DNA of 64,000 nt from Prolixibacter sp. NT017 (lineage in GTDB: Bacteria; Bacteroidota; Bacteroidia; Bacteroidales; Prolixibacteraceae). Within the stretch, counting starts at the first letter, position 1. Every line of letters starts with the position of its first letter. The stretch is taken from NCBI RefSeq assembly GCF_009617875.1, contig NZ_BLAV01000001.1, forward strand, positions 496,001 through 560,000, written 5' to 3'. Made by a program: the position numbers and the translations under genes. This document shows positions 19,857-56,779 of this stretch, one piece after another. A model generated the notes under the pieces. That model ran no database searches. It was not told the DNA's origin and was given only the letters and a program-made list of their open reading frames with translations.

Positions 19857-21179
19857 TCATTCCTCGCCTGTCTTCACCCGCTTCTCTACGTTGGGTAGGC
19901 GATAGCTTCGGTAAGCGCCCAGCAGCCCCAGCAACGATAGGAACAAAACAACGCCTTCAACCGAAAGCAACGATACCAAAGCGCTCAGGCTTCCTACCAG
20001 CAGCAGGATGATACCAATCAGCGTATTGCTAATCGACACATAGTTAATACGCTCGTTCCCGGTAGCCATGTCGATCACATAAGTCTTTCTTCCCAGCCGG
20101 ACGCCCTGGTGGGCAATTCCTAAAATGAAAAAGGCAGCCGGATAAATCCAGTGGTAACTTCTAACCGAGTCGGTGTACCGGGCGATGAAGAAAGTGGCAA
20201 TTCCCAATCCCGAAGCAATCAGTATGGCTGTCGACATCACATTCTTGCTCGATTTGTCGGCATATTTCCCCCAAATGGGCGAACTGACGATGGAGGCAAC
20301 TCCTTTAGCGATCACAAACAGCCCCAGGAGATAGGCTTCTTTCCCCACGTATCGTTGCGCCAGTATCACGTAAAACGGAGCCGACAGGGCCGAGCACAAC
20401 AGCAGGGTGCGGGCAATAATGAAATTGCGGAAATGCTGGTCGGTTTTTAGCAGGCTCAGGTGCGAGACCGCGCTGTTCTCCTCTTCATCTTCCGGTACCA
20501 CATCCGACGGAAACTCTTTGATGCGCGAATAAATCACGGCAGCCACCAGCCACGTTGCGGCGGCAAAAAAGATGATGGCGCTGTAAAACGAGAGGGTGGG
20601 ATGGTGATGCGATTGGTAAAGAATGTACAGACCGGCTACCAAAACCAAAACACCCGATGCCGAAACGGAGTATCCCTTCAGTTTTCCCCGCCGGTTTTTT
20701 GGGATGGTCTTCCCGGTAATGGCTTTCGACGACAAAGAACTGAGGCTTCTCGATAAACTAAAGAATACCAGGGCAACAATGATGAGCCATCCTGCCGTGC
20801 GTCCCTCAAAGTTCAGTACGATGAAACCAATCGATGCGATGGCGAGAAACTGAAGCAGCGAACCCAGCACCCAAATCCACTTCCTCACTGCCCGCTTGTT
20901 AATGTATTTGGCAAACAGCACCTGCGGAACCATGGCGCCCGACTCCCGAATGGGGACAATGAAGCTAATCAGATAGACCGGAGCGCTCACATAGCTCATC
21001 AGCCAGGTTAAAACCGTTTTGGGATTGCTCAACGTATCGCCGAGTTTGGTGAAAATCTGGCTGAAGATGGTCAGGAAGAAATTCCGGGGAACGTACCGGC
21101 AGGCCTCCTCCGATATTTCGGTGCATACTTGTTCGTCATCGTTGTCTTTGGTGAGGTAGCGATACAATTTCTTAATCAT
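19857..21179 (-). CDS. MFS transporter of unknown substrate
   Basis: The 440-residue protein has a soluble N-terminal stretch (DNDDEQVCTEISEEACRYVP) and then about twelve membrane segments. The loop between segments 2 and 3 reads KYINKRAVRKWIW, and the central loop is acidic (PEDEEENS). It is a major facilitator by layout, with no residues that fix the substrate. It is the last well-behaved chromosomal gene before the cassette-like region. Confidence 0.82.
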   Translation of the reverse strand: MIKKLYRYLTKDNDDEQVCTEISEEACRYVPRNFFLTIFSQIFTKLGDTLSNPKTVLTWLMSYVSAPVYLISFIVPIRESGAMVPQVLFAKYINKRAVRKWIWVLGSLLQFLAIASIGFIVLNFEGRTAGWLIIVALVFFSLSRSLSSLSSKAITGKTIPKNRRGKLKGYSVSASGVLVLVAGLYILYQSHHHPTLSFYSAIIFFAAATWLVAAVIYSRIKEFPSDVVPEDEEENSAVSHLSLLKTDQHFRNFIIARTLLLCSALSAPFYVILAQRYVGKEAYLLGLFVIAKGVASIVSSPIWGKYADKSSKNVMSTAILIASGLGIATFFIARYTDSVRSYHWIYPAAFFILGIAHQGVRLGRKTYVIDMATGNERINYVSISNTLIGIILLLVGSLSALVSLLSVEGVVLFLSLLGLLGAYRSYRLPNVEKRVKTGEE

Positions 21180-21393
21180 TCTGCAACTGGCTTATTCCGT
21201 TTTTTGACGTGTTAATCGTTGAGGTGCTACTTTTTTAACACGCTTGCGGGGGAATAGTTTGCAGAGTGCGGCCCCGGGACGCTGGTAGGTGCCAGTAACG
21301 GGCTGGCTTTTCACGCAGAACCCCATGGTTTGAAACAGAAAGGAAGAATGGTGGTTTTAGTTCCGGCAAGTATGAGAAATGAGGCCGGATATG

Positions 21394-21415
21394 AGAGGCT
21401 TTTGGGGCAGCCTCT
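21394..21415 (-). terminator. Hairpin downstream of the last cassette-like gene
   Basis: A 7-bp stem (AGAGGCT / AGCCTCT) with an 8-nt loop follows the stop of the lipoprotein gene at 21442. There is no T tract, so function as a terminator is uncertain. Confidence 0.4.
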
Positions 21416-21441
21416 TGTGTGTCGTAAATGGAATATGATGG

Positions 21442-22128
21442 TTAGTTTGACTGTTTAAACCCAAAATTCAGCGTGTCATTTTGTAACAGAATGCTAATCT
21501 GCAGTCCTTTTATGCTCATGGCAACCGGAAACAGGACCTCCCCGCTAATTTTAGTATTTGGAGCGACGTTTTGAGGTAACAAAGCACGGTTATTCCAAAA
21601 ATCAAGTTCTTTTTCTACCCTGCTTAACCGGGCACTATGGTCTTGTTCCCAGTTATATTCATCCTCTTCTCTTTGCGACTCCCATTTTTTAGGATCCTGG
21701 CCAAAAATAGCTGCTACGGTTCCCTGAATAAGTCCATTTTTTACTATCTCTTTTGTATTTTCCCCTTTCAGCGAATAGGGATTTTTTTCATTCATCAGGC
21801 TGTCCTTTTGCCTTTCCAATCTGTTGATTGTTTCGTCAGGGTTTACACAGTAAATTTGAGGGCTTATTTTATTTTTTCCCGGCCAAAAAATGTACGAAAA
21901 CAGGGAAGGATCAACTGAAACAGGATTGTTCGAATTGTTTTTGATGGCGACACTAAACTGGTAGTTCTTATTTCGCACCCTGGTAAAATTAACTTCTGCC
22001 TCGTAATTATGGCTTTGTCTCCTATTATTATCAACACGGATTAATTGAAGGTTAGGCGTTGTTGTGAGACGTTGAGTTGTGCAACAGGCAAGAATTAAAA
22101 AGACAACCGCTATACTTTTCTTTATCAT
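21442..22128 (-). CDS. Lipoprotein of unknown function (last gene of the cassette-like array)
   Basis: The 228-residue product begins with a lipobox leader (MIKKSIAVVFLILACCTTQR). The mature protein holds a beta-rich first half (NYQFSVAIKNNSNNPVSVDP) and a charged helical middle (QREEDEYNWEQDHSARLSRV). Family not recognised. It lies downstream (on the minus strand) of an attC-like site, but no clear attC follows it; it may be the terminal cassette or the chromosomal flank. Confidence 0.75.
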   Translation of the reverse strand: MIKKSIAVVFLILACCTTQRLTTTPNLQLIRVDNNRRQSHNYEAEVNFTRVRNKNYQFSVAIKNNSNNPVSVDPSLFSYIFWPGKNKISPQIYCVNPDETINRLERQKDSLMNEKNPYSLKGENTKEIVKNGLIQGTVAAIFGQDPKKWESQREEDEYNWEQDHSARLSRVEKELDFWNNRALLPQNVAPNTKISGEVLFPVAMSIKGLQISILLQNDTLNFGFKQSN

Positions 22129-22191
22129 ATCATTCTTGTTTTTACATCCTAATTGTTTAGCAGTGGTTCATCGTTCTGCCCGGTTTATTGC

Positions 22192-22313
22192 GGTTTGCTG
22201 TGTGAGTAGCGGCCGATTGCATGGTACAACCCTTTCGGGCCGCTACGTAGTTTGACAGAGCTGGGAGCCTTGATATTTAATTCATCATCCGCCATTACGT
22301 GTAAAACAGTAAA
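22192..22313 (-). other. attC-like recombination site 4 (degenerate)
   Basis: The two ends are imperfect inverted repeats: on the (-) strand the site begins with TACTGTTTTACACGTAATGG and ends with the near complement near 22192-22215 (GGCCGCTACTCACACAGC). The conserved TAAC cores are lost. The middle about 107 bp (22200-22306) is a close copy of 24210-24316. Confidence 0.6.
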
Positions 22314-22324
22314 TGTTTTTATTT

Positions 22325-23062
22325 CTATCTTTTCACAAAGCATTCACCCATGCCATATTCATCAGTTTCTTTTGAATGAAGAACAATGGAAATCTTATTA
22401 TAATTCAAATCCAACTTCTCAGAATTTTCTGGTTTTCGAATTTGTACCAAAAAACCATACATATAGGCTCCTCTTGCATATTCAGTTACCTTTTTTATGC
22501 CGATAACTTCAGATTTGTATCCATTTATACTAGCCCGTAGCTCATCTTTTGAAATTGTATTTGGGGCAATGTCTATTATTTTTTTCGCTGTAATAGCCTT
22601 CTGTTCAAGTTCTTTTTTATTATTTCTTCCTTGAAATTCTAAAGACTTGGTTAAGCTCATAGGTCTAAAATATACCATGTATGTATCGTACGGACTAACT
22701 TGTGGTTCAAAGGCATTCATCCCATAAATTTCCATTCGCTCATATTTTGGATTTATTTCCAAATCATTGTATGCCGGAATATTCCATGCCCAATACTCAA
22801 GTTTTGTCTTTCCATAATCATCTAATCTTATCGCATATAAACAACAGTATGTCTTTTTTTCTACTCTCATAGAAAAATATCCATCCTTATCTGTTAGGGT
22901 TTCATATAGATTTTCAAATTTTTTATTCTTCAATCGAACTGTTACACTGTCTAAAGGGGTGTCTTTGAAGTCTGTTACACGTCCATGGATGTTGATAGTG
23001 TCTTGTGCATATAGGTTCAAGCCGCTAACAGCTAAGAAAAAAAGAACCATTAATTGTTTCAT
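22325..23062 (-). CDS. Secreted protein with carboxypeptidase-regulatory-like domain
   Basis: The 245-residue protein has a signal peptide (MKQLMVLFFLAVSGLNLYAQ) followed by a transthyretin-like domain (INIHGRVTDFKDTPLDSVTV, then TLTDKDGYFSMRV) like the first domain of many Bacteroidota outer-membrane proteins. The remaining about 150 residues are not recognised. It is AT-rich and lies between attC-like sites 3 and 4, so it reads as one gene cassette. Function unknown. Confidence 0.8.
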   Translation of the reverse strand: MKQLMVLFFLAVSGLNLYAQDTINIHGRVTDFKDTPLDSVTVRLKNKKFENLYETLTDKDGYFSMRVEKKTYCCLYAIRLDDYGKTKLEYWAWNIPAYNDLEINPKYERMEIYGMNAFEPQVSPYDTYMVYFRPMSLTKSLEFQGRNNKKELEQKAITAKKIIDIAPNTISKDELRASINGYKSEVIGIKKVTEYARGAYMYGFLVQIRKPENSEKLDLNYNKISIVLHSKETDEYGMGECFVKR

Positions 23063-23143
23063 ATTGCATGTTTGTCATTAGTACTTTTTATTAGACAACG
23101 TGAAAATATAAAAAGTTACAGTTCTGAGAATTTTCGTAAAATA

Positions 23144-23204
23144 GTTGCTAACGGATGGCAGTATGAAAAGTTGCATTTTATACCGCATAGTAGGCGGTCG
23201 TAGT
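23144..23204 (-). other. attC-like recombination site 3 (short)
   Basis: On the (-) strand this about 61-bp site starts just after the methyltransferase stop (CCGCCTACTATGCGGTATAA) and ends with ATCCGTTAGCAAC. The end contains the GTTAG core expected of attC and the two ends are imperfectly complementary. The size is within the usual 57-141 bp range. Confidence 0.62.
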
Positions 23205-23206
23205 TT

Positions 23207-23770
23207 CTATTGTCTTATTTTCATTATTACTGTTCTGCTAAAAAATATCTCTGGTCTTTCACAGATTTCAAATCCTCTGGTTTCCATCTTTTCAATTATT
23301 TTGTTGAACTTATTTTTCGAAACGTGAAATTTTTGTTCGGAAATATAAATCATCGTCTCAGGTTTTACAATTCTTGTCAGGTCACGAATAATGTGGTCAA
23401 TATATTTCATTTCGTGAAAAGAATAAAAGGCAAAGATAAAATCAACTTTTTCTGTCAAACAGATTTCATTTTCTTCGCTGTTGTGAATTTCAATTAGCTT
23501 TTGTAATTCACTATTACGTAATTTACGTTTCAATATTTCAAGCATTCCTTCCTGCACATCAATTGCTATGACTTTCCCTTTTCCGTTAAGCAATTTTGCC
23601 ATTTCTAATGTAAAGTAGCCTGTTCCACAACCTAAATCAAGAACGGTCATACCCGGGCGAACATATTTTTTCAATATTCTTCTCGGATTCTGTAATAATA
23701 GTCGAAGTCGGCTATCTAAAGCACCAGCATTTTCTATTGGGTGCAAATGGATGTTGGAAAAATCATTCAT
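23207..23770 (-). CDS. Class I SAM-dependent methyltransferase (cassette gene)
   Basis: The 187-residue protein has the SAM-binding motif I VLDLGCGTGYFTLEMA near residue 42, motif II VIAIDVQEGML and the later KVDFIFAFYSFHEM. It belongs to the broad Methyltransf_11/25 group; the substrate is not readable. Its start overlaps the end of the frameshifted membrane-protein gene by 8 bp, so the two share a cassette or operon. It is more AT-rich than the chromosome around it. Confidence 0.88.
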   Translation of the reverse strand: MNDFSNIHLHPIENAGALDSRLRLLLQNPRRILKKYVRPGMTVLDLGCGTGYFTLEMAKLLNGKGKVIAIDVQEGMLEILKRKLRNSELQKLIEIHNSEENEICLTEKVDFIFAFYSFHEMKYIDHIIRDLTRIVKPETMIYISEQKFHVSKNKFNKIIEKMETRGFEICERPEIFFSRTVIMKIRQ

Positions 23771-24174
23771 TTAAAATTTGCTCCTTTACTTTTGTCCCAG
23801 GTAAAAGCAAAATAATTACTACAAAAATTGTAATCGCATCGGGTATTAATAGCGTACAATTACCTTTACTACTCATTACGGTAATATATGAAATTACTAT
23901 CCAGCGCATTGTTAAAACAGCAATAATTAGCCAGGCGGTAAACTTTACTTTTAATAGATTCTGTTGAAATGCCATTATTAGTAAAGCTATTCCAAAAACA
24001 AGATTTTCTATGCCTATTGTATGCCATACATAGGTAAACGCCACTTTTGCTGTGTTTTCAAATTTGGGAACGGTCTAAACTTGACAGAACCGTCTCGATT
24101 CCATTCAGTGTGTGAGCAACTGCAAAAAGAATACATAGAAGTCCAACAATTAAATAAAAGTAATTTCGAATCAT
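23763..24174 (-). pseudogene. Small membrane protein, frameshifted
   Basis: Reading from ATG 24174 gives MIRNYFYLIVGLLCILFAVA and continues to a stop at 24060-24058. A one-base shift near 24066-24075 continues in another frame as VPKFENTAKVAFTYVWHTIG and on to 23763, with three more hydrophobic segments. The joined product would be about 136 residues with four membrane helices. Either the gene is broken by an indel or the base call is wrong; the downstream part alone (from 24044) could also be translated. Family not recognised with certainty. Confidence 0.7.
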
Positions 24175-24194
24175 ATTTTGTTTTTTAATATGAC

Positions 24195-24327
24195 GTCTAA
24201 CGACAAATTGTATGAGTAGTGGCCGACTGCATGGTTCATCCCTGTCGGGCCGCTACGCAGTCTGACAGGGATGGAAACCTTGATATTTGACACATCATCC
24301 GCCATTACGTATAAAAAATGTTAGCGG
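24195..24327 (-). other. attC-like recombination site 2
   Basis: On the (-) strand this 133-bp site runs from CCGCTAACATTTTTTATACG (just after the acetyltransferase stop) to TTTGTCGTTAGAC. The ends are imperfect inverted repeats over about 28 bp including the CTAAC/GTTAG cores. GTTAGAC fits the attC core consensus GTTRRRY. Inside are nested stems (for example CATCCCTGTC with GACAGGGATG). The length is like Vibrio VCR sites. Confidence 0.72.
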
Positions 24328-24336
24328 TTCGTTGTT

Positions 24337-24840
24337 TTATTTCAGTTGCAATACCATTTGGTCTTCAGTAAAATATTTTTCCTTCCATTTTATTGCTTTG
24401 CTTTCAGAACTAAAAGTGACGAAGCCAAATTTCTCGTAGAGTTTTTTTGCTTTGTCATTATTTGCAATTACTGTCAAATTGATTTGTTCAATGTCAGAGA
24501 TTTGCTTCACTCTTTCAATTACTTTCTCAATTAACTTTTTTGCAATTCCTTGTCCACGAAAATCTTTGGAAACATACATTCTAAACAGAATACCTTTATG
24601 CTTTAATTTTTCTCTGTCTTTGCCGTCACGTGCAAAACTTACTACACCTACTAATTCATTGTCTGAATATGCCCCAAGTGAAAAACTGTCCAACTTGTCT
24701 TCCGTTGGGAAAGGCGCATTTAAGTCGTCATTAGGTGTTATACGAAAATTTTCTTCGTCATTAATAAGTCCGAAAGTCAGGAACTTTTTATACTGTTCAA
24801 CTTGGTCAGACTTGATTTCTACAATATCTATAATATTCAT
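24337..24840 (-). CDS. GNAT-family N-acetyltransferase (cassette gene)
   Basis: The 167-residue protein shows the GNAT fold: a central strand ELVGVVSFARDG, motif A with RMYVSKDFRGQGIAKKLIEK (acetyl-CoA binding R-G-Q-G-I-A), and motif B NNDKAKKLYEKFGFV. It transfers an acetyl group from acetyl-CoA to an unknown amine. Small GNATs are frequent integron cassettes. It lies between attC-like sites 1 and 2. Confidence 0.9.
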   Translation of the reverse strand: MNIIDIVEIKSDQVEQYKKFLTFGLINDEENFRITPNDDLNAPFPTEDKLDSFSLGAYSDNELVGVVSFARDGKDREKLKHKGILFRMYVSKDFRGQGIAKKLIEKVIERVKQISDIEQINLTVIANNDKAKKLYEKFGFVTFSSESKAIKWKEKYFTEDQMVLQLK

Positions 24841-24878
24841 AATATTTGTCAGTTGATGATTGTCGTTTTACAATGAAT

Positions 24879-25012
24879 GCTGACGGTCACTTGTAGGTGG
24901 TCGGGCGGTTCCGAAGCAATCGGAGCTGTCAGACCAGTAAGAAAGTGGGCACGAGGTCTGACTTGTCAAACCGAGAAACACCCCGCCTGCCATATGACAA
25001 AATGTTAGCGGC
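24879..25012 (-). other. attC-like recombination site 1
   Basis: On the (-) strand the site starts with CCGCTAACATTTTGTCATAT, in which the TAA stop codon of the preceding gene is part of the CTAAC core, and ends with GACCGTCAGC, a mutated core. The ends are imperfectly complementary and the inside contains further stems (GTCAGACC with GGTCTGAC). About 134 bp. Confidence 0.62.
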
Positions 25013-25454
25013 TGTAGTTTATTCCTTTATTGTCTCCATATTTTTTATAAATATCATCCAATTCGTTGACTGTTGAGTTCATGAAGGTTTGGTCTCCTGT
25101 TATTTCAAAATCTAGTATATTCTTCAGCATATAATTTTCAACAAATTTTCCATTGGTAATGACATGTCCTGTTTCATCGTATTTTATAGTCAATTGAAGA
25201 TTGTTCTCGTAAGATTCAAGTCGGGCAATTCCATCTAAATTCTTTTGGCATTTCTCTAACTCTTGGAAGAAATTAAAAATATTTCCGGTCGTTATCCAGA
25301 GCAATCCTTTCACATAGTAATTTGAACTTCTAATTTCAATTGTACTTTCAGTGTCATATCCACCAAAAACACTCGTTGTTTCAGGAAATCCTATAACTTT
25401 TGTCAAAATAATCCGGACAAATCCGTTTTCTCCTATGATTTCAAATTTCTCCAT
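25005..25454 (-). CDS. WapI-family immunity-like protein (cassette gene)
   Basis: The 149-residue product has no signal or membrane segment. Its layout (short beta strands, FNFFQELEKCQKNLDGIARL, then NNLQLTIKYDETGHVITNGK and a late FEITGDQTFMNSTVNELDDI) resembles the WapI-type immunity proteins that protect from contact-dependent or polymorphic toxins. I make this call from memory of the pattern, so it is moderate. No toxin gene is adjacent, so it would be an orphan immunity gene. Its stop codon is embedded in attC-like site 1. Confidence 0.6.
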   Translation of the reverse strand: MEKFEIIGENGFVRIILTKVIGFPETTSVFGGYDTESTIEIRSSNYYVKGLLWITTGNIFNFFQELEKCQKNLDGIARLESYENNLQLTIKYDETGHVITNGKFVENYMLKNILDFEITGDQTFMNSTVNELDDIYKKYGDNKGINYSR

Positions 25455-26136
25455 TTGGTTTTATTAAAATTACCGCCAACTTACGATATTGCATATGCGT
25501 TATATATCGTATATATGCATTGTTTTTCAATTGTCTGTCAGTCCAGGTTTACGGTGCAAAAACAAAACCAATGGACTTTTTCTTTTTGCAAGAGCGGACA
25601 GGCTCACATGCGGCGAAATTTCTGTCACCTCACACGATTTCTGTCTTGGTTTGATGCAGTTAGTTTTCATCCGTGAATTTTTGTTTATTAATTACCGGAT
25701 GGAACTTGCATGACAAATTCTCATTCGTGTTTCTGCTTTAACGAATTATGCTCGTTTCATCTGTTCGGTCATTTCGCTTTCCCAATTTAACAAAAAACAT
25801 CCGGAAACCGGTTTTTGACCTTCCTGAAAACGCTGTTTTTCTATTATCATAATTTTTGTTCGCTCAACAGATCCGGCCATTCATCAAAAAGTTTCGCACG
25901 TTCATCAAAAAAAATGGCATAGCCGGAAAGTTTAATCTATATTGATTATACGGTTTTTGGAGAAGGACAGATGTTAGCCGGAAGTTTGTGAAGAGTGACA
26001 GTGGGAGTGATGAACCGTTGTGCGTTCATTGAAAATGATACATCCCGGTCTGTCAACGGCACCCAATCGAATCAATCCGAACCATTCGGACTGTTTCGTT
26101 GGCACCGGACGAAGTGTTTCTGCCGGTATAAGTAAC
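25455..26136. other. Gene-free region between cassette array and tandem array 2
   Basis: Next to the first cassette gene, the (-) strand reads CGTAAGTTGGCGG, a possible remnant of a recombination core (attI or attC). The rest is AT-rich with no convincing gene. At 25880-25911 the 11-mer TTCATCAAAAA occurs twice, 21 bp apart. The region should hold the promoter for the cassette array on the (-) strand. Confidence 0.4.
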
Positions 26137-26604
26137 AACTCAGCATCCGATTTGGTACTTCTACAGATACAGGAACGAACTCAGCATCTGATTTGGTACT
26201 TCTACAGATATAGGGACCAACTCAGCATCTGATTTGGTACTTCTACAGATATAGGGACCAACTCAGCGTCTGATTTGCTACTTCTACAGATACAGGGACC
26301 AACTCAGCGTCTGATTTGCTACTTCTACAGATACAGGGACCAACTCAGCATCCGATTTGGTACTTCTACAGATACAGGGACCAACTCAGCGTCTGATTTG
26401 GTACTTCTACAGATACAGGGACCAACTCAGCATCCGATTTGGTACTTCCACAGATACAGGAACGAACTCGGCATCCGATTTGCTACTTCTACAGATACAG
26501 GAACGAACTCAGCATCTGATTCGGTACTTCTGCGGATACAGGAACCAACTCAGCGTCTGATTTGGTACTTCCACGGATACAGGGAGGAACTCAGCATCCG
26601 ATTT
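26137..26604 (+). repeat. Tandem array 2: eleven 41-bp units plus a partial
   Basis: Units begin with AACTCAGC at 26137, 26178, 26219, 26260, 26301, 26342, 26383, 26424, 26465, 26506 and 26547, with a partial unit at 26588. Differences are confined to a few positions (catC/Tgattt, GG/GC before TACTT, ggaacg/gggacc). The period is not a multiple of three, so no repeated peptide of unit length is encoded. The array ends about 105 bp before a DUF6261 gene. GTTGGCACC occurs on both flanks (near 26098 and 26631). Confidence 0.95.
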
Positions 26605-26709
26605 ATAGCTTCCGGGAACCGAGGTATGTTGTTGGCACCAGGCAGGGCATAACCGAACGAATCAAATCATATCAAATTTTATATACTAACCTTTTAAAAT
26701 GTTTATCAC

Positions 26710-27441
26710 ATGAAAAAACTAGTTTATTCGATCCTTCCGGTCGACGGATATTACACATTCAGTCAGCGTTTTCTCGAATTATTGAAATCTGCCGTTTCGG
26801 AAACATTCGATTTGTCGGCGGTGATAGCCCCGCTCGAATCGGTATTTCTCCGGTTTGAAACGGCGTACAAAAGAGAGCGGAAAAGCGAATATACCGCTAA
26901 GCTGGCGGCGGCCGACGAGGCGCGCGACCGGGCGTACCTGGCGCTGCGTCATTACCTGGTGGCCTGCTCGTATGCCAGCGTTGAGGGATATAAGGCTGCT
27001 GCCGATACGCTGCTGAGCATTCTTAAACGGCTGGGCTGGTCGATGCAACTGGCCAGCTACCAGACCGAATCGTCGCGCCTGGGGAACCTGATAGCTGAGC
27101 TGGGACAGGAAGAAAACGCCGCGTTGCTGACCACGGTTCAGGGGACTGCCTGGCTGGAACGCCTGATGACAGCTGCCGATGCCTTCGAGGCTATTTTTCA
27201 GCAAAAACTGACCGCGGAAGCAGCCGATACAAACACCTCGGCCTACCGTTTGCGGAAAGTTTTGCAGGAGCAGATTGAAATGAGCCTGTCGTGGCTGGAA
27301 GTACAACAGAAGTTCAACCCGTCGGACAAGCTGACCACCCTCATCGGGCAGGTCGACGAATTAATTGCCCACACCATGACGACGGCCCGGGCCAATGCCA
27401 CCCGGAAATCGGCGGAGGAAGAGGCTTTGGAAGAAGAATAA
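26710..27441 (+). CDS. DUF6261-family helical protein, next to tandem array 2
   Basis: The 243-residue protein is helical throughout without signal or membrane segment. Text such as VIAPLESVFLRFETAYKRER, AADEARDRAYLALRHYLVAC and WLERLMTAADAFEAIFQQKL matches the pattern I know for DUF6261 proteins of Bacteroidota, whose function is not established. The C-terminus is acidic (SAEEEALEEE). It is preceded by an A/T-rich leader and by the 41-bp array, and followed 56 bp on by a terminator. It parallels the 9356 gene in size, helical content and position after an array. Confidence 0.82.
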   Translation: MKKLVYSILPVDGYYTFSQRFLELLKSAVSETFDLSAVIAPLESVFLRFETAYKRERKSEYTAKLAAADEARDRAYLALRHYLVACSYASVEGYKAAADTLLSILKRLGWSMQLASYQTESSRLGNLIAELGQEENAALLTTVQGTAWLERLMTAADAFEAIFQQKLTAEAADTNTSAYRLRKVLQEQIEMSLSWLEVQQKFNPSDKLTTLIGQVDELIAHTMTTARANATRKSAEEEALEEE

Positions 27442-27496
27442 CGCACTTATCCTGGTTGCTCATCATACGTTTTTGAGGTTATTAATTATTGGTTTA

Positions 27497-27527
27497 GCCG
27501 CCGGGCGATTGTCCGGCGGTTTTTTTT
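27497..27527 (+). terminator. Terminator of the DUF6261 gene
   Basis: A GC-rich stem (GCCGCCGG with CCGGCGGT) is followed by eight T residues. Confidence 0.88.
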
Positions 27528-27529
27528 AT

Positions 27530-28435
27530 GCCCGCACCCTGTCAGAGGCTGCAGATCCTGGCAGAGGTTTATTTGGGAGCTGATGCGTTGAATTGGTTTT
27601 ATTGCCCCTCCCGGCCTCCCCTGGGGAGGAGAGCGGTCGCGAAGGACGGACGCACGGAACCAGGGGGCGGCGGTTCATTCAGCGTTTGCTTTTTATTGCA
27701 ATGCTGGTTGAATTTTCGTTTTTGAATCAGGTAATTGAGATTTTGCAGTGACACCCTCGTTTTGTTGATAGGTTTTAACCCGCCCCTTCAGGGCGATGGT
27801 CAATGTACGGCACTTTTTTACCCCAAGCCTGTCCTGACGAACATCGGGGGCGTTGCCGTTGGGCTGAAATAAGCTGTTCCTTTGGAATGGAAGGAGGGCG
27901 ATTTTGGAATTGAGTCCCCGCAATTTTGCAGTGCCGCTGGTCCTTCTCTATGTTAGAGAAGGGTTGGGATGAGTAGAAAATACTTCCCGGAATCATTTCG
28001 CGGTTGTGCTTTTATACTCTAAAAAGTAAGTGCATGTGTATGTTAAATAATCAATAGAATTTTATTCGAAAGAGGTATCCGGAACAATATCTTTTATCTT
28101 CGCATCGTTAAATAAAGGACAAATAGGTCCGAAATAGAATGCGCTATAACAACGCTCGCCTGCGCAAGCATTCGCGGAACGAAAAAAAGGTCTTGTGGAA
28201 TGAATTGGCATGGAACGGCTGAAATACCGCTATGGGACCTGTAACAGAGTGTGTGAATTGATAATGACTAATCCAAAAAAATGCCTGGCATGGTGAACGA
28301 AACAGGTAGCTGCGGTTCTCAACAAGATTTGAATTGTATGAGCAGTGATTCTGTTTTACACGATTTTCCTCTTTCAGTTGGCAGTGCATTGTCCTGAAAG
28401 AATTTATCCAAACCATAATCAAAGACGATTCGACA
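27530..28435. other. Gene-free region with short palindromes
   Basis: About 900 bp without a convincing gene. It holds CCTCCCC/GGGGAGG near 27614-27630, CCCGCCCCTTCAGGGCG near 27779-27795 and an 11-nt hairpin arm pair around CCTTCTC/GAGAAGG near 27940-27965. These look like intergenic palindromic repeats. CCTGTCAGAGG at 27538 recalls the palindrome family of the 8.8-10.3 kb island. The promoter of the giant gene must lie in the right-hand part. Confidence 0.4.
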
Positions 28436-31400
28436 ATGAAAAAGATTCCAATCCTAAAACTGTTTTTTCTACTGATTGCCCTCTTCTTCCTGCAAAATGC
28501 TGGGGCACAAACCACGCTGTCATCCAGCCCAACACTTACTTTTTCGAGTACTGCTGGTCTCTCGGATTATATCGCTCAGGATGGCGATGGAGGTTCAACG
28601 CCTATCAGCGACATTGATATCCAGATTTTCAACATCTCGGATGTAAACGGGACGATGCAGTCCGCTTTAAGTTGGGAGAACAACAGCTGGCTTGCTAGTG
28701 CCAACTCATCGTTTTCAGCCTTGACGAACCCTAACAATAGCGGCTCGAAAGGGATGGATATCAAATCTGCAGACGGTAGTGAATTCCGTTTGATGAAGTT
28801 TGATTATTATAATTGGGGGGAAAGTAATCCATTTACCAATACCATTAAGGGATATCGAAATGGGAGTGAAGTCGCTTCTACCACCTTTCAGGGATTTGAT
28901 GCTTCTTATAACCCAATCACCGTTACGTTGGGCTCAGCTTTCGAGAATGTCGATGAGGTGCGATTCTACATCAGTGCCGGAGGATATTTGGGCGACCAGT
29001 CTGCCACCAATCATAGCATCAACAATATCCAGGTGAGTAGTGCGGTTACTCCTTCACCCACTATTTCCAATGCCACCTACGATGCCTCTACCGGCATACT
29101 GGCAGTTACCGGGACCAATATGACGTCGGGGGATGTGATAGACCCGACCAAACTAACCCTCACCGGACAGGGCGGCGCAACCTATACCCTGACCGGTTCT
29201 GTTTCTGCGGTTACAGCTTCGGGCAGTACCAGCTTCTCGGTTGGATTGAATGCGAGCGATCAACTGGCCATCAACGGTATATTAAACAGGAACGGTACCT
29301 ATTCGGTGGACAATACTACCTATAACCTGGCCGGTGCTTCCGGCTGGGACGCAACGGCTGCTTCACCGGCTGATGTTACCGGAAATGGCATTACCGTCAG
29401 CAATGTGATGTCGCCAACTATCACTTCGGCTACTTACAATGCCAGTACTCATGTGCTGGCGGTAGCCGGTACCAACCTGGTGAGGGTACCCGGTGCCGCG
29501 AACGATATTACGGTGAATAAACTGACGGTAATCGGAGAAAACAACGGAAATTATACGCTGACCAGCAGTGACGTGGAGATTACCGATGCCACTTCGTTTT
29601 CGGTTACGCTGAATGGCGCGGACCAGTCAGGCGTGGCCGGTCTACTGAATAACAACGGAACTTCGTCGCTTGACGGAACGAATTATGACCTGGCTGCTGC
29701 CGACGACTGGAACAGTAACGTTACGGGCGGTGATATTTCGGACCTGACCGGGAATCAGATTACGGTTTCCGGGGTGAATACAACGCCTGTTCTCTCGAAC
29801 CTCGATGGAGACAGTAATGCCTGGGGAGGTGTTGGCAATACCGTGGCATTGGATGCTTTGGGCGATGCCACCGCCAGCGATGCCGAATTTGACGCACTGA
29901 ATGGCGGAAACGGCGATTGGGCTGGGGGCAGCCTCTCTGTTCAACGTGCAGGAACTGCCATCAGCAGCGATGTTTTTGGCTTTGATACCTCCGGCGCTCT
30001 TTTCACCGTGAGTGGCAGTGACCTGCAATCGGGCGGACTAACGTTTGCCACCTTTACCAATACCGGCGGCGTACTGACCATCAGTTTCACGAGCAGCGGT
30101 ACCTCCGCCACAACTGCTTTGGTGCAGGATGTCATCCGGCACACCGACTACCGGAACGATACGCCGGCAGGTGATGCTACCCTCCGGTTTAGCCTGAGCG
30201 ATGGGAATACTTCTGCTACCGCTGATGTGACCGTGACCAGCAATACGATATATGTGACCAATTCGACGGATGCAACCAGCATCGATGTTTCCAATGGTGT
30301 TAGTTTGAGCGAAGCCGTTGCCATCGCTGCTGCCGATAATACCGGTAGCCAGACGATTGTTTTTGGTTCGTCGCTGGCATCACAGACGATAGCGCTGGCC
30401 GGGAACCTGTCCATTAACGAAAGTTTGACTGTGAATACCGGTAATGCCGGTGGCGTATCTATCAACAGCAATACCATTACGCTGGGCAGCGGCGATGTCC
30501 TCACCTGGAGTGGCAGCAGTAGCGCGACTGTTAACTCCACGCTGTCCGGCTCCGGGAACCTGAGTAAAACAGGGTCGGGTACCTTAACGTTAAGTTCCGG
30601 GAGCAATAACGCTGGTTGGTCCGGGGCGATATCAGTCACCGGGGGAACCCTTTCAGCCGGAGTCAGTGCGCCCGGTTCGCTGCCATCGGGCAATCTGACG
30701 CTCGATGGTGGTACCTTGCAGTGTACCGTTACAGGGACCGCCGGTACTACCCGGACCATCGCAAACAATGTTGTCCTGGGGGCCAATGGCGGTACCATGA
30801 GTATCGGCGGCGGGGGCGGTGCCAACATAACCGATTTTACCGGCGTGATTTCCGGTACCGGAAACCTGACCAAAACAGGGGCAGCTATCCTTCGGTTGAA
30901 CGGTAGCAACACTTTTGCCGGCACTACAACGGTTTTTGCAGGAACATTGTCCGTCGCCGGCGACAGTAACCTGGGAACAGGAACACTCACACTGGATAAC
31001 GCTTCCACGCTAGCGGTCACCGGGCCGACGACCATCGATAACAGCATCGCTTTAAACGGTACTTCTACCATCGATAACAGCGCAGCCGTTACGTTGTCCG
31101 GCATCATCACAGGTGCGAACAACCTCGTCAAATCCGGTCCGGGAACACTGACCCTCTCCGGTACGAATACGTATTCGGGTACTACTACTGTTGATGCGGG
31201 TACGCTCAGTGTGAGTAGTGACAGCAATCTCGGCAACGGTGCCCTGACGTTATCGTCAGGTACAAACCTGGCCCTTACGGGAGCTACCACGGTTGACAAT
31301 GCAGTGGTCCTCAGCGGCAACGCTACGGTGAATACTTCGGCCAATGCTACCTTGTCGGGAGTGATTAGCGGTACCGGCAACCTGACGAAAACCGGAACCG

Positions 31401-34400
31401 GTACGCTCACCCTTAGCGGTAGCAATACCTATTCGGGTACGACCAGTACCTCCGCGGGAATACTTCAGGTTGCTTCCGACAGCAACCTTGGGACAGGTGC
31501 GGTTAACCTGGCGGGCAGCACCCTTGCTGTCAGTGGTGCGACAACGATTGATAATGCAGTTAACTTGTCCGGCAGTTCAACGGTTCGTGCTTCGGCTGAT
31601 GCCACCCTGTCGGGAGTTGTCAGCGGAAGCGGAAGTCTGACCAAACAGGGCAGCGCTTCGCTGACGCTAAGCAACACCGACACCTATACCGGCAGCACGA
31701 CAATTAGCGCCGGTACGCTGATGGTTACAGGCGCTTTGTCGGGCACCGCTTCGCTAACGGTAGGCAATACGGCCACGCTGGCCGGCGATGGCTCGGTTTT
31801 TGGCAGCGGAACTCCAACGCTGACAGTACAGAGCGGAGGTACCCTGGCTCCGGGAAACAGCGTAGGCACTCTGACGGTTAACGGTAACCTGAATGTGAGT
31901 TCCGGCGGTATGCTGGTAATAGATATTAACGGAAACACAGCTGGTACCGGCTACGACCAGGTAGCTGTATCCGGTACGGTAGATGTCACCGGCGCAACCA
32001 TTTCTGTCGCGCACAATTATTCCGCCGGAAAAAGTGTTAGCTATACCATCATCAACAATGACGGTTCGGATGCCATAACCGGAACGTTTGCCAATCTGGC
32101 GGAAGGCGCCACTCTGACTTCCGGCGGTAATGGCACGGTGTTAAAAGCAAGCTATGTTGGCGGTGATGGTAACGACTTGACATTAACGACCCCGGCGAAC
32201 GTTGCACCGGTGGTATCGAACCTGAATGGTGACAACGCCTCGTTTACCGAAAAAGGCAGTGCGGTTGCACTGGACACCGGTACGGCAGCGAATGTCAGTG
32301 ATGCCGATAATACCAATTTCAGCGGAGGAAATGTGACCGTCTCCCTGGTGACTAACCGGGTGGCATCGGAAGATGTTCTGGCAATTGCCAATCAAGGCAC
32401 CGGTGCAGGACAGATAGGAGTCTCCGGCAGTAGTGTGACCTACGGAGGAGCTACGATAGGTACTTTCACAGGAGGTAGCGGAACGAACGATTTGGTCATT
32501 TCGTTGAGTGCCAACGCTACTCCCACGGCCACTTCGGCCTTACTGCAGGCACTGACTTACAGCAACAGCAATACGACTACGCCTGACAATTCGACCCGTA
32601 CAGCGCGGGTGACCGTGAATGACGGTGATGGCGGAACCAGTGGCAACGCCGATGTTAGCATTGGCATAACGGCCGTTAACGATGCACCGACCTCTTCGAC
32701 AACCGGTGCTACGGCAAGCTTTACCGAAGGCGGTAGTGCGGTTGCATTGTTCTCGGGAACGACATCGTCGACGGTTGAGAGCGGCCAAAATATTACTGGC
32801 TTTGTAGTGGGGATGACCCACGCCGACGGCACGACAGACGAAACTCTGACCATCGACGGTACTTCCATTGTCGTTGTGGATGGTAATTCCGGGACCACCG
32901 GTGGAAATGGACTGAGCTATGTTGTTACGCAAGTGGGGGGCGCCGATCATCCGGCAACTGTAACACTTTCGGGCGGCAACTTGTCCACTGCTCAATTCGA
33001 TGCGGTGATTGACGGAATCAAGTGGTTGAGTACAAGCAATGATCCAACGGCTTACGGGTACAACTATCGCAGCTTCTATGTGGGAAGCGTAAAAGACAAT
33101 GGCGGTACGGCGAACGGTGGCAGCGACACGCAGTCCTCCAATACCGGGACGGCCTCAGTTACCATCACGGCAGTGAACAATGCACCTGTCGTTACGACTT
33201 CATCTACCGCACTTGATTTCACCGAAGGCGATGCCGCATCGGTCATCGATGCGGGAATTACGGTTTCGGATGTGGATAATGCCACGCTCGCATCGGCAAC
33301 CGTTTCTGTCAGCGGAAACTTTGCATCCGATGAAGATGTATTGGCTTTTGCCAATGACGGCAGTACGATGGGGAATATTTCGGCGAGCTATAACAGTTCT
33401 ACCGGAGTCCTGACGATGGCATCGTCCGGCTCTACCGCAACCCTTGCTCAATGGCAGACTGCCCTGAGAGCGGTGAGCTATGCAAATTCTTCGAACAATC
33501 CTTCCACATCGCCCCGGACAATCAGTTTTATCGTGAGCGATGGTACCGATGATAGTACACCGGTAACACAAACGGTTCATGTCACGGCGGTGAACGATCC
33601 GCCGGTTGTGTCGGGAACGTTTGCCGGTTCGGTGACCGAAGGAAACATCGGCGACAGCCCGGTAACAGCTACCGGAACGCTGTCCATTAGTGATGTGGAT
33701 GCAGCAACCAGTCCTTCGTTTGCTGACGAAGCTTCTACGGTTGGAGATAATGGCTACGGTAGTTTTGTTCTTGCTTCCGGGAACTGGACCTATACGCTGG
33801 ACGAAAGCAAGGTGCAGAGCCTGGCAGCCGGCGCTACGGTTACCGATACCCACACGTACACTGCCACCGACGGCACCACACAACAGATTACGATTACCAT
33901 TACGGGTACGGATGACCCGCCGGTATTGGCGGGAACATTTACCGGCTCAGTGACCGAGGGAAACACCGGCGACAGCCCGGTAACGGCTACGGGAACGCTA
34001 TCCATTAGTGATGTGGATGCAGCAACCAGTCCTTCGTTTGCTGACGAAGCTTCTACGGTTGGAGATAATGGCTACGGTAGTTTTGTTCTTGTTTCCGGAA
34101 CCTGGACTTATACGTTAGACGAGAGTAAGGTGCAGAGCCTGGCAGCCGGCGCTACCGTCACCGATACACATACCTACACTGCCACTGACGGTACGACACA
34201 ACAGATTACGATTACCATTACGGGTACGGATGACCCGCCGGTTGTGTCGGGAACGTTTGCCGGTTCGGTGACCGAAGGAAACATCGGCGACAGCCCGGTA
34301 ACGGCTACCGGAACGCTATCCATTAGTGATGTGGATGCAGCAACCAGTCCTTCGTTTGCTGATGAAGCTTCTACGGTTGGAGATAATGGCTACGGCAGCT

Positions 34401-35794
34401 TTGTTCTTGCTTCCGGAACCTGGACCTATACGCTGGACGAAAGCAAGGTGCAGAGCCTGGCAGCCGGCGCTACCGTCACCGATAGGCACACCTATACCGC
34501 CACCGACGGTACGACACAGCAGATTACGATTACCATTACGGGTACGGATGACCCGCCGGTTGTGTCGGGAACGTTTGCCGGTTCGGTGACCGAAGGAAAC
34601 ATCGGCGACAGCCCGGTAACGGCTACCGGAACGCTATCCATTAGTGATGTGGATGCAGCAACCAGTCCTTCGTTTGCTGATGAAGCTTCTACGGTTGGAG
34701 ATAATGGCTACGGCAGCTTTGTTCTTGCTTCCGGAACCTGGACCTATACGCTGGACGAAAGCAAGGTGCAGAGCCTGGCAGCCGGCGCTACCGTCACCGA
34801 TAGGCACACCTATACCGCCACCGACGGTACGACACAGCAGATTACGATTACCATTACGGGTACGGATGACCCGCCGGTATTGGCGGGAACATTTACCGGC
34901 TCGGTGACTGAAGGAAACATCGGCGACAGCCCGGTAACGGCTACCGGAACGCTATCCATTAGTGATGTGGATGCAGCAACCAGTCCTTCGTTTGCTGACG
35001 AAGCTTCTACGGTTGGAGATAATGGCTACGGTAGTTTTGTTCTTGCTTCCGGAACCTGGACCTATACGCTGGACGAAAGCAAGGTGCAGAGCCTGGCAGC
35101 CGGCGCTACCGTCACCGATACCCACACGTTCACTGCCACCGACGGCACCACGCAACAGGTTACCATTACGATTACGGGAACGGATGACCCGCCGGCCATG
35201 GACCTGTTTCAGGAAGCTGAGGCACTGGCTGCAGATGGGACCTTTGACTTTGGAACTCAGACGGTGAATACCAGTACCGATACAACATTTACTATTGAAA
35301 ACAACGGAATCGGGACTTTAACTCTGACCACTCCCATCTCGCTTTCCGGTGCTGATGCCAGCGATTTCGAAATCATTCAGCAGCCGGAGTCAATGGTTGC
35401 AGCTTCGTCGTCGACCACTTTTGTGGTGCGGTTTGCGCCCTCTTCTATTGGAACCAAAACTGCTGCGATAAGCATTGAGAATAACGATCCAAACAAAAAT
35501 CCTTATGTGGTCAATTTGCAGGCGACAGTGGTTACAGCCACCGGCGTTGATGATCATTCGGTAGAAAAGCTGGTGAAGGTATATCCAACGGCCACTCACG
35601 ATAAGGTTCATGTTCAGTTGGCGAACACCGAATTTGATGTGGCGTTGTACAGTCTTCAGGGAGTACAGTTGAAACAGTGGAATGGAGTCACTGACAATGT
35701 AACGTTGAATCTGGGGGCTTACCATCAGGGGATGTACATTTTGAGGATAAAAGCTGATCATAAGGTAGTGACCCGACGCGTCATCAGACGATAA
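28436..35794 (+). CDS. Giant repeat-rich T9SS-secreted surface protein (2452 aa)
   Basis: A signal peptide (MKKIPILKLFFLLIALFFLQ) is followed by a region with two repeated beta domains (ATYDASTGILAVTGTNM and ATYNASTHVLAVAGTNL). Residues about 690-1100 carry autotransporter-associated beta-strand repeats (GTLTLSGSNTYSGTTT). About 1250-1720 hold cadherin-like/VCBS-type domains. About 1722-2252 are five near-identical 106-residue VCBS repeats. About 2256-2368 form a choice-of-anchor-D-type (ASPM/SPD2/Hydin-like) domain. The last about 77 residues (VKVYPTATHDKVHVQL to KVVTRRVIRR) are a T9SS type A sorting domain. It is thus exported across the outer membrane and likely acts as an adhesin or surface fibre. 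It appears monocistronic. Confidence 0.9.
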   Translation: MKKIPILKLFFLLIALFFLQNAGAQTTLSSSPTLTFSSTAGLSDYIAQDGDGGSTPISDIDIQIFNISDVNGTMQSALSWENNSWLASANSSFSALTNPNNSGSKGMDIKSADGSEFRLMKFDYYNWGESNPFTNTIKGYRNGSEVASTTFQGFDASYNPITVTLGSAFENVDEVRFYISAGGYLGDQSATNHSINNIQVSSAVTPSPTISNATYDASTGILAVTGTNMTSGDVIDPTKLTLTGQGGATYTLTGSVSAVTASGSTSFSVGLNASDQLAINGILNRNGTYSVDNTTYNLAGASGWDATAASPADVTGNGITVSNVMSPTITSATYNASTHVLAVAGTNLVRVPGAANDITVNKLTVIGENNGNYTLTSSDVEITDATSFSVTLNGADQSGVAGLLNNNGTSSLDGTNYDLAAADDWNSNVTGGDISDLTGNQITVSGVNTTPVLSNLDGDSNAWGGVGNTVALDALGDATASDAEFDALNGGNGDWAGGSLSVQRAGTAISSDVFGFDTSGALFTVSGSDLQSGGLTFATFTNTGGVLTISFTSSGTSATTALVQDVIRHTDYRNDTPAGDATLRFSLSDGNTSATADVTVTSNTIYVTNSTDATSIDVSNGVSLSEAVAIAAADNTGSQTIVFGSSLASQTIALAGNLSINESLTVNTGNAGGVSINSNTITLGSGDVLTWSGSSSATVNSTLSGSGNLSKTGSGTLTLSSGSNNAGWSGAISVTGGTLSAGVSAPGSLPSGNLTLDGGTLQCTVTGTAGTTRTIANNVVLGANGGTMSIGGGGGANITDFTGVISGTGNLTKTGAAILRLNGSNTFAGTTTVFAGTLSVAGDSNLGTGTLTLDNASTLAVTGPTTIDNSIALNGTSTIDNSAAVTLSGIITGANNLVKSGPGTLTLSGTNTYSGTTTVDAGTLSVSSDSNLGNGALTLSSGTNLALTGATTVDNAVVLSGNATVNTSANATLSGVISGTGNLTKTGTGTLTLSGSNTYSGTTSTSAGILQVASDSNLGTGAVNLAGSTLAVSGATTIDNAVNLSGSSTVRASADATLSGVVSGSGSLTKQGSASLTLSNTDTYTGSTTISAGTLMVTGALSGTASLTVGNTATLAGDGSVFGSGTPTLTVQSGGTLAPGNSVGTLTVNGNLNVSSGGMLVIDINGNTAGTGYDQVAVSGTVDVTGATISVAHNYSAGKSVSYTIINNDGSDAITGTFANLAEGATLTSGGNGTVLKASYVGGDGNDLTLTTPANVAPVVSNLNGDNASFTEKGSAVALDTGTAANVSDADNTNFSGGNVTVSLVTNRVASEDVLAIANQGTGAGQIGVSGSSVTYGGATIGTFTGGSGTNDLVISLSANATPTATSALLQALTYSNSNTTTPDNSTRTARVTVNDGDGGTSGNADVSIGITAVNDAPTSSTTGATASFTEGGSAVALFSGTTSSTVESGQNITGFVVGMTHADGTTDETLTIDGTSIVVVDGNSGTTGGNGLSYVVTQVGGADHPATVTLSGGNLSTAQFDAVIDGIKWLSTSNDPTAYGYNYRSFYVGSVKDNGGTANGGSDTQSSNTGTASVTITAVNNAPVVTTSSTALDFTEGDAASVIDAGITVSDVDNATLASATVSVSGNFASDEDVLAFANDGSTMGNISASYNSSTGVLTMASSGSTATLAQWQTALRAVSYANSSNNPSTSPRTISFIVSDGTDDSTPVTQTVHVTAVNDPPVVSGTFAGSVTEGNIGDSPVTATGTLSISDVDAATSPSFADEASTVGDNGYGSFVLASGNWTYTLDESKVQSLAAGATVTDTHTYTATDGTTQQITITITGTDDPPVLAGTFTGSVTEGNTGDSPVTATGTLSISDVDAATSPSFADEASTVGDNGYGSFVLVSGTWTYTLDESKVQSLAAGATVTDTHTYTATDGTTQQITITITGTDDPPVVSGTFAGSVTEGNIGDSPVTATGTLSISDVDAATSPSFADEASTVGDNGYGSFVLASGTWTYTLDESKVQSLAAGATVTDRHTYTATDGTTQQITITITGTDDPPVVSGTFAGSVTEGNIGDSPVTATGTLSISDVDAATSPSFADEASTVGDNGYGSFVLASGTWTYTLDESKVQSLAAGATVTDRHTYTATDGTTQQITITITGTDDPPVLAGTFTGSVTEGNIGDSPVTATGTLSISDVDAATSPSFADEASTVGDNGYGSFVLASGTWTYTLDESKVQSLAAGATVTDTHTFTATDGTTQQVTITITGTDDPPAMDLFQEAEALAADGTFDFGTQTVNTSTDTTFTIENNGIGTLTLTTPISLSGADASDFEIIQQPESMVAASSSTTFVVRFAPSSIGTKTAAISIENNDPNKNPYVVNLQATVVTATGVDDHSVEKLVKVYPTATHDKVHVQLANTEFDVALYSLQGVQLKQWNGVTDNVTLNLGAYHQGMYILRIKADHKVVTRRVIRR
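30550..31740 (+). repeat. In-gene autotransporter-type beta-strand repeats
   Basis: About four to five copies of a roughly 83-residue unit repeat inside the giant gene, each with SGxGNLTKTGxGTLTLSG, NTYSGTTT, SDSNLGTG and a TTxDNxVxLxG segment. Copies have diverged at DNA level, unlike the later VCBS repeats. Confidence 0.8.
33601..35190 (+). repeat. Five 318-bp tandem VCBS repeats inside the giant gene
   Basis: Units start at 33601, 33919, 34237, 34555 and 34873, each encoding 106 residues (GTFAGSVTEGNIGDSPVTAT, DVDAATSPSFADEAS, GSFVLASGTWTYTLDES, ITITGTDDPP). Units 3 and 4 read as identical over 318 bp, pointing to recent duplication or conversion. Confidence 0.95.
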
Positions 35795-35816
35795 GAATAA
35801 GAGGGTAAATATTATC

Positions 35817-35852
35817 TGGGGCCAGGGGAGGTAACTTCTCTGGCCTCTTTTC
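35817..35852 (+). terminator. Terminator of the giant gene
   Basis: An 8-bp stem (GGGGCCAG with CTGGCCTC, one G:T pair) and a 14-nt loop precede TTTT, 23 bp after the stop codon. Confidence 0.75.
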
Positions 35853-35959
35853 ATCTGTGGTGATCAACCGAATTGTTAGGAATGGAAAGAGTGTAATGGG
35901 AGAATCAAACCAGAACTCCGTATGTTTGTTGAAGTCATATCATCCGGAAAGATTGAATC

Positions 35960-55819: not shown

Positions 55820-56779
55820 TTATATATCAAGAGGACTGCGCACAGTGAATCGATTGTTGTTTAGTACTTGCTTGTAAACCATAGTATTCCGGATGTCTTT
55901 GTGTCCCAGTAATCGTTGAACCGTTTCGATGCAATAACCGTCTTCTAAAAGATGAGTGGCAAAGCTATGCCGGAAAGTATAACAGGAAACATGTTTGGAA
56001 ATTCCGGTATGGCGTACCGCTTCTTTTACGGCTTTTTGCAGGTGATTTTCATGAATGTGGTGTTGGAAAAGCTTCTCTGAGCCATTCTCGGTACTCGGTT
56101 TCCCGGAAGGAAAAAGGTATTGCCAGTCCCATTCCATCGCTGCTTCGGGATGTGCTTTTTGGATAGGTTCCGGAAGGTTGGTACCTGCAAAGCCTGGGAT
56201 TAATTTGTTTTCTTCGAATTGGATACTGATTTTTTGGATTTGTCTGGATAATCGTGGAATGAGCAGCGATGGCAACAAGGTCTTTCGTTCCATCTCGTTG
56301 TTTTCGTCCCGGACAATGATTTCTTCTTTCTCTATATTGATATCACGAATACGTAAGCGCAGACATTCGTTCAGTTTCAAACCACTGCCGTAAATTAACG
56401 ACGCCATCAAACGGAACTCTCCCTGCAGGTCGTTCAGAATCTCCTGCACCTCTTCGCGAGTCAAAATCGTTGGTAGTTTTTTCTTGATTTTGAAATGTTT
56501 CGAATGGAAATCATCAAAGGGAATACTCAACACTTTGGTATACAGAAAAACAAGTGCATTGAGTGCCTGGTTGCGGGTCGAGGGGGAAACACTGCGCTTT
56601 TGGCTCAGGTAATCAAGGTATTCAGTTACTTCGGGGGCACCCATCTCCTTCGGGTGTTGCTTGTTGTTGAAGATGATGAAGCGGTATATCCAAGCCAGGT
56701 AACTCTTTTCGGTACTGCTGCTGAAATGGTTTTTGTGGATGATATCCCTGACTTCATCTAAAAACTCAGTGTGCTCCAT
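55820..56779 (-). CDS. intI: Integron integrase (IntI-type tyrosine recombinase), active site altered
   Basis: The 319-residue protein matches IntI in length and text: FLDEVRDIIHKNHFSSSTEK, HPKEMGAPEVTEYLDYLSQK, VSPSTRNQALNALVFLY, the IntI-specific insertion (HPEAAMEWDWQYLFPSGKPS) and the end FTVRSPLDI. Against IntI1 the catalytic set is altered: Arg I (GTGMR) is Lys in YGSGLKLNE, the beta-hairpin Lys region (REGKGSKDR) reads VRDENNEMERK, and the His of HTLRH is Tyr in CYTFRHSF. Arg II, the LLGHKD His and the Tyr of NTMVYKQVL remain. It may be inactive or much impaired. No attI or cassette is visible next to it. Confidence 0.9.
   Translation of the reverse strand: MEHTEFLDEVRDIIHKNHFSSSTEKSYLAWIYRFIIFNNKQHPKEMGAPEVTEYLDYLSQKRSVSPSTRNQALNALVFLYTKVLSIPFDDFHSKHFKIKKKLPTILTREEVQEILNDLQGEFRLMASLIYGSGLKLNECLRLRIRDINIEKEEIIVRDENNEMERKTLLPSLLIPRLSRQIQKISIQFEENKLIPGFAGTNLPEPIQKAHPEAAMEWDWQYLFPSGKPSTENGSEKLFQHHIHENHLQKAVKEAVRHTGISKHVSCYTFRHSFATHLLEDGYCIETVQRLLGHKDIRNTMVYKQVLNNNRFTVRSPLDI

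Follow-up and report, generated by a model that had tools for sequence, protein, structure and literature searches.

The 64-kb window analysed here (G000:C1:496001-560000; G-codes denote genomes and L-codes loci) belongs to the 5.14-Mb, single-contig genome of Prolixibacter sp. NT017 (G000) and contains an array of small genes and palindromic sites that a preliminary description had taken for an integron-like cassette array. Six open reading frames (ORFs) of this array lie on the minus strand: a WapI-like immunity gene (25005-25454; Pfam WapI, E 9.3e-18), a GNAT acetyltransferase gene (24337-24840; Pfam Acetyltransf_1, E 2.3e-19), a gene for a small protein without family, which has a membrane-spanning look by eye only (23763-24044), a methyltransferase gene (23207-23770; Pfam, E 1.1e-17), a gene for a CarboxypepD_reg-like protein that scores below the Pfam cut-off (22325-23062) and an ORF without family (21442-22128). 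PADLOC contributed one notable match, that of the methyltransferase to a part of Mad2 (E 5.1e-23). As the preliminary description had stated, the genes are AT-rich: the G+C content of 22190-25480 is 34.3%, compared to 47.5% in the remaining window. We consider it very probable that this array is a decayed part of a dispersed system of attI sites and hairpin cassettes, which in related bacteria would be run by a XerA-like tyrosine recombinase that we label BacInt.

The four intergenic palindromic sites (S1-S4) are present as previously described, with CTAAC/GTTAG-type cores in three of them, and like all features of the array they are oriented on the minus strand. The attC-like sites S1 (24879..25014, type GTCTGACAAGTCAGACC) and S2 (24194..24329, type AATATCAAGG) both carry GCTAAC at one end, and GTCAG (right core GTCAGC) or GTTAG, respectively, at the other. 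The TAA stop codon of the WapI-like gene indeed falls within GCTAAC of S1. S3 (23144..23210) is truncated and was recognized by its sequence; it retains the right half with CCGTTAGCAAC and has GTTAGC at one end only. In S4 (22182..22317), both cores are lost, and S2 and S4 share 108-nt direct copies with 85% identity. Covariance model R1 was built from seven G000 sites and model R2 from 150 R1 matches. Within the window, R1 (E<=0.01) and R2 matched nothing besides S1, S2 and S4, which together with the 22 matches in the whole genome described below speaks against a chance result; the R1 match of these three is by construction, as they were among its seven source sites. S3 was matched by neither. 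R2 scores were 77.1 bits for S1 (E 3.5e-15), 88.2 bits for S2 (E 8.9e-18) and 46.5 bits for S4 (E 5.2e-8), where E-values of such home-made models are rough. A search of positions 21000-26100 against Rfam gave a single chance-level match only.

If crossover follows the G of GTT, the region can be divided into a putative head (25481..25600; crossover expected after G25480, G|TTGGCGG) and four cassettes. Cassette 1 (24884..25479), consisting of the WapI-like gene and S1, starts with GTTGGCGG, which has one mismatch in eight bases to GTTAGCGG expected from its end core. Cassette 2 (24201..24883), with the acetyltransferase gene and S2, starts with GTCAGCATTC in place of the expected GTTAGCGGTTC and is probably decayed or fused because its start does not fit its own end core. 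Cassette 3 (23152..24200), with the genes for the small protein and the methyltransferase, starts with GTTAGACG at S2, and no matching end core was found; cassette 4 (22190..23151), with the CarboxypepD_reg-like gene and S4, starts with GTTAGCAAC and has lost its end core. The signature expected of cassettes is thus weak here, and judging from these sequences the array belongs to a dispersed cassette system but has itself decayed too far to display this signature. The sister species G112 has at this locus (L184, 1948-2061) an element that aligns to the head with 71% identity, continues as ...ACATAC|GTTAGGGG and is followed by other sequence; the window copy seems to be a few bases shorter beside the crossover. 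Because a BLAST search did not connect it with attI-like heads at other arrays, we regard the window head as a putative attI. Support for the integron-like reading comes mostly from related arrays and not from the window array.

Such arrays are numerous. Copies of S2 elsewhere in G000, which are 74-85% identical to S2, revealed the loci L021 and L022. In G000, R1 had 22 matches at E<=10, of which 18 reached E<=1e-3, and R2 gave 22 matches across the genome at E<=0.01, with 18 among the matches listed falling into seven clusters. At the same threshold, R2 had 50 matches in G112, 15 in G113, 22 in G114 and 110 in G069. The sites are approximately 125-140 nt long, and 84.7% of the stem cells are paired across 150 sites, in an alignment that was fitted to the model and is thereby biased towards pairing. 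In the same fitted alignment, 430 stem cells had changed on both sides compared to 157 in shuffled alignments, and none of 500 shuffles scored as high. The spacers are unequal, with 4 nt on one side (146/149 sites) and 7 nt (105 sites) or 6 nt (43 sites) on the other, and one hairpin arm is one base longer in 97/149 sites, while the arms are equal in 47/149. The hairpin with extrahelical bases that had been anticipated for attC-like sites was thereby recovered. Taken alone, the small number of sequence types among the sites and the identity of the S2-like copies would also suit transposon-like or repetitive extragenic palindromic (REP)-like repeats that were inserted after genes, in which case the arrays would be ordinary operons.

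The arrangement of the core sequences contradicts this alternative. If the cut is made after the G of GTT, the following bases belong to the next cassette and face the end core of that same cassette in its circular form. Both cores were readable in 140 of 149 sites of a first set, and in 89 of 117 consecutive same-strand pairs the pentamer that follows GTT is the reverse complement of the cassette's own end core, compared to 2/117 for the adjacent core. On average, 5.58 of eight bases matched the own core in this set, against 2.59 after permutation (highest of 2000 permutations, 2.98). In a second set from the family genomes G069, G112 and G114, 32 of 49 pairs fitted their own core and none the adjacent one (permuted mean 1.7, nine pairs unreadable), and in a third set from genomes outside the family the numbers were 31 and 3 of 54 (permuted mean 1.8, three pairs unreadable). 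Several misses in the third set share a single string within a locus (in L248, four of five pairs), suggesting that our script chose the wrong GTT. The cores fit the far end of their own cassette instead of the adjacent half-site, and this own-start test together with the differing contents at shared loci and the recurrence of whole units beside other neighbours, both described below, make an origin as inserted repeats extremely improbable. The core consensus of attC sites is GTTRRRY / RYYYAAC. The assumption that the cores of these arrays obey this rule proved wrong: the 89 matching cores comprise 59 different nonamers, and only 8 of 89 fit GTTRRRY, though GTT and AAC are kept.

In related bacteria, the recombinase at the array head is XerA-like and without patch, and not an integron integrase (IntI). 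G000 itself encodes an IntI with patch 30 kb from the array (55820..56779, minus strand; TIGR02249, 357.2 bits, cut-off 265), whose alignment with IntI4 2a3v extends across the patch (E 9.8e-70) and which is 91% and 75% identical to the proteins of Prolixibacter denitrificans DSM 27267 and P. bellariivorans, respectively. With this IntI as query, the best matches in eight array-rich genomes were open frames of 375-412 residues, five of which lie just upstream of arrays. The first BacInt loci that we viewed were those with sites already known nearby; in 17 of 20 further loci fetched regardless of sites, same-strand sites follow downstream of BacInt. Among the three exceptions, L225 and L241 have less than 1.8 kb of downstream sequence, and the single match in L238 lies on the opposite strand. 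The first cassette starts 70-91 nt after the BacInt stop codon in eight loci (L185-L188, L190, L191, L193 and L201). The distance from box I to box II is 91-92 residues in 21 of 21 BacInt sequences compared to a median of 135 in 20 IntI, using a pattern that misread at least one IntI. In a phylogenetic tree, BacInt formed a group apart from IntI (SH-aLRT 95 and 99, with long-branch warnings and the Xer sequences as long branches). The closest relatives in the PDB are archaeal Xer recombinases, and the AlphaFold model of BacInt had a mean pLDDT of 83.4. BacInt from G069 scores just above the cut-off of XerA / NF040815, which NCBI names site-specific tyrosine recombinase/integron integrase (222.2 bits, cut-off 220). 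Unlike that family, BacInt is found at cassette arrays and, in the family genomes, has an additional N-terminal domain of approximately 90 residues. Residues 1-78 are predicted to form a b-b-a-b-b-a-b succession with weak likeness to HARP or DUF5710 (profile) and to the XPB damage-recognition domain (fold), none of them decisive. A second layout is represented by eight loci (L242-L249), selected because recombinase and sites face apart: here, recombinase frames of 280-319 codons, lacking both patch and N-terminal domain, lie at the array head on the opposite strand and face away from the array. L246 has one more site on the other side of the recombinase gene.

A conserved sequence of approximately 70-110 nt precedes the first cassettes and ends at G|TT, and we regard these heads as attI-like. 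The search covered 24 combinations of locus and strand and failed to identify a cassette start in L192, L021 and the window. The head copy beside BacInt in G114 begins within the last codons of the gene and has six matches in G000, 11 in G112, four in G113 and three in G114; in G000, four of these matches are array heads, and the other two are weak. Related heads precede dispersed arrays in G069 and are also present in L021 and L022. At the G112 loci L117-L120, the match includes the last BacInt codons, and in L119 (5066-5227) a remnant of the BacInt C-terminus, comprising the last 54 residues with interrupted similarity in tblastn, lies just upstream of the attI-like site. Four attI loci are common to Prolixibacter species, and at each of them the flank alignment stops 2-24 nt from G|TT, after which the contents differ: 3 nt past GTT against G112 and 21 nt against G113 and G114 at the 625k locus, 2 nt and 24 nt against G112 at 1404k and 2722k, and 3 nt against G113 at 1856k, where the G113 contig ends soon after. 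Alignments longer than 150 nt were absent beyond G|TT up to the far flank or up to short site-length matches, the latter at 1404k among other places.

Cassettes also recur between genomes. Among 274 extracted cassettes, which include some counted twice from overlapping loci, 255 have their longest ORF on the array strand, and an all-versus-all comparison gave 15 full-length pairs between genomes, whose neighbours were unlike at E<=1e-10 wherever both were comparable. Two pairs are protein-coding (G071/G054, 93.6% identity; G067/G108, 88.2%), and the other 13 are versions of one cassette of approximately 480 nt. This cassette (start GTTAACGGCAAG) has no conserved gene and no Rfam match and occurs in L193 (2049-2528), L090 (from 6007), L092, L094, L122 and L123, in four genus codes (G069, G131, G114 and G109), with 78-88% identity in full-length pairs. 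It or a close variant is the first cassette after attI in L193, L196 and L186, and the question arises whether it is a promoter or RNA cassette.

The distribution of sites and recombinases bears on a further alternative, namely that the arrays are ordinary clusters of attC sites lacking an integron integrase (CALINs), built by a classical IntI that is now lost or located elsewhere, with BacInt as a bystander. The window array, which no integrase adjoins, resembles a CALIN in this respect, and CALINs are described as commoner and more widespread than complete integrons in bacteria (PMC9668308). True IntI (TIGR02249, E<=1e-50) is indeed present in G000, G112 and G113, none of which had a BacInt gene at E<=1e-60; only 3'-end remnants lie beside attI at some G112 loci. 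However, among 140 family genomes, in which up to 21 candidates per genome were scored with R1 at E<=0.01, IntI was found in five and R1 sites in 97. BacInt was present at the threshold given above in 77 genomes, 64 of them with sites, and neither was detected in 30. Genomes with BacInt had on average 8.2 R1 sites and those without 1.7; at least ten sites were counted in 33 genomes, namely 31 with BacInt plus G000 and G112, which have IntI instead. The position of BacInt upstream of same-strand sites, the short distance to the first cassette and the recombinases facing away from the array in the second layout, chosen as these were, likewise argue against a bystander. We therefore judge the CALIN explanation to be improbable. 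Among 395 evenly drawn Bacteroidota genomes, in which up to eight candidates per genome were scored with R2 at E<=1e-3 under strict filters, 137 had sites, 97 had BacInt relatives at E<=1e-60, 71 had both and 232 neither (odds ratio 9.6); all co-occurrence counts treat genomes as independent, with kinship uncorrected.

Several observations weigh against a system run by BacInt. In 33 of the 140 family genomes, R1 sites occur without BacInt, as the CALIN explanation would predict, and in 13 BacInt occurs without sites; in the phylum sample, the corresponding numbers are 66 and 26 of 395. The BacInt relative in L238 has no same-strand site, and the cassette signature is incomplete in 28/117, 17/49 and 23/54 pairs of the three sets. 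The argument for IntI acting in trans is its presence in the genome, and R2 had no match at the IntI loci L001, L025, L026, L124 and L125, nor do sites lie beside the window IntI. Finally, the cores of the window array are mostly decayed, so that its sequence does not indicate mobility today. The latter point leads to the possibility that the window array is dead debris on which no integrase of G000 acts, for which we see an even chance. The altered or lost cores of S1, S3 and S4 and the missing BacInt speak in its favour, as does the location of the array within a 14.6-kb segment (window 21262 to 35906) without match in P. denitrificans, which has three other genes there. On the other hand, IntI without internal stop codon is present in G000, G112 and G113, and other arrays of G000 (L086, L088, L089 and L022) retain matching cores and differ in content from sister species. 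In the comparison with sister genomes, contents differ near G|TT at the four other attI loci; the boundaries of the difference to P. denitrificans at the window locus are not at core sites. The unmatched segment also contains tandem repeats with a unit of about 45 bp by eye (GATACAGGGACCAACTCAGC...; 26130-26600), located between the cassette array and a large repeat protein, an adhesin-like, repeat-rich protein of 2452 aa with long antisense ORFs (28436-35794), and short elements at 27902-27980, 25836-26032 and 27594-27649, for which several matches are dispersed across other Prolixibacter genomes.

The integron-like reading is favoured because of the cassette signature, which we regard as decisive, the covariation of the stems, the attI-like heads, the differences at shared loci, the recurring cassettes and the position of BacInt. 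Cassette units, crossover register, attI-like heads, differing contents at shared loci and recombinase genes at array heads can be read directly from the sequences, and recombination would be the process that connects them. The proposed platform would consist of an attI-like site followed by one-direction genes, each ending in a hairpin site. A tyrosine recombinase would cut after the G of GTT, presumably on a folded single strand, and the two ends of the released circular cassette would form a perfectly paired core of 9-10 nt before joining at attI or another site. In site-rich relatives, the enzyme would be BacInt encoded at the array head, while in G000, G112 and G113 the canonical IntI may have replaced it and serve the dispersed arrays in trans, which makes the window IntI a candidate trans-acting integrase.

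Chromosomal (sedentary) integrons, consisting of IntI, attI and attC cassettes, share with these arrays genes that mostly run in one direction, sites that form hairpins, a crossover following the G of GTT, an attI-like head with a tyrosine recombinase gene and cassettes common to several species. The Bacteroidota arrays differ by a recombinase without the IntI patch, by cores that mostly deviate from GTTRRRY and match over 9-10 nt, by the unequal spacers (4 and 6-7 nt) and by their dispersal over many loci, many with their own attI-like site. Frequently, moreover, the BacInt gene and the array share a strand, and the attI-like site follows the stop codon of the gene. Unlike CALINs, the related arrays do possess a recombinase at their head, but it would go uncounted under definitions that rely on the extra domain. 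According to the accessible parts of the literature, this domain separates IntI from other integrases (PMC9024848, PMC2426708) and is called defining (PMC9668308). Bacteroidota are listed there among the phyla with integrons (PMC9668308, PMC8618304). In Bacteroidetes, only In0, integrases without cassettes, had been seen before a genome survey added one complete integron in Salinibacter (PMC9024848); as far as the accessible text of PMC8352920 extends, Bacteroidetes are not named among its eleven taxon models. Within the titles and abstract openings of the papers listed, with bioRxiv and most subscription journals outside the scope, no announcement was found of attC-like arrays in Bacteroidota together with an integrase lacking the patch.

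On balance, we lean towards a second integron lineage, present in about one third of the sampled Bacteroidota, with a XerA-type integrase that lacks the I2/patch domain and would move hairpin-site cassettes; the lineage would be either a survivor from before the patch or an independent invention. A large gene-exchange system in Bacteroidota may have been overlooked, because IntI is recognized by its extra domain and only integrases without cassettes had been seen in Bacteroidetes before the Salinibacter integron was added. The 'chicken-egg paradox' (PMC4792948) is the question how selection could have favoured the I2 domain without attC sites already in place, and attC sites without the I2 domain, and patch-less recombinases at arrays of hairpin sites would be a candidate intermediate.

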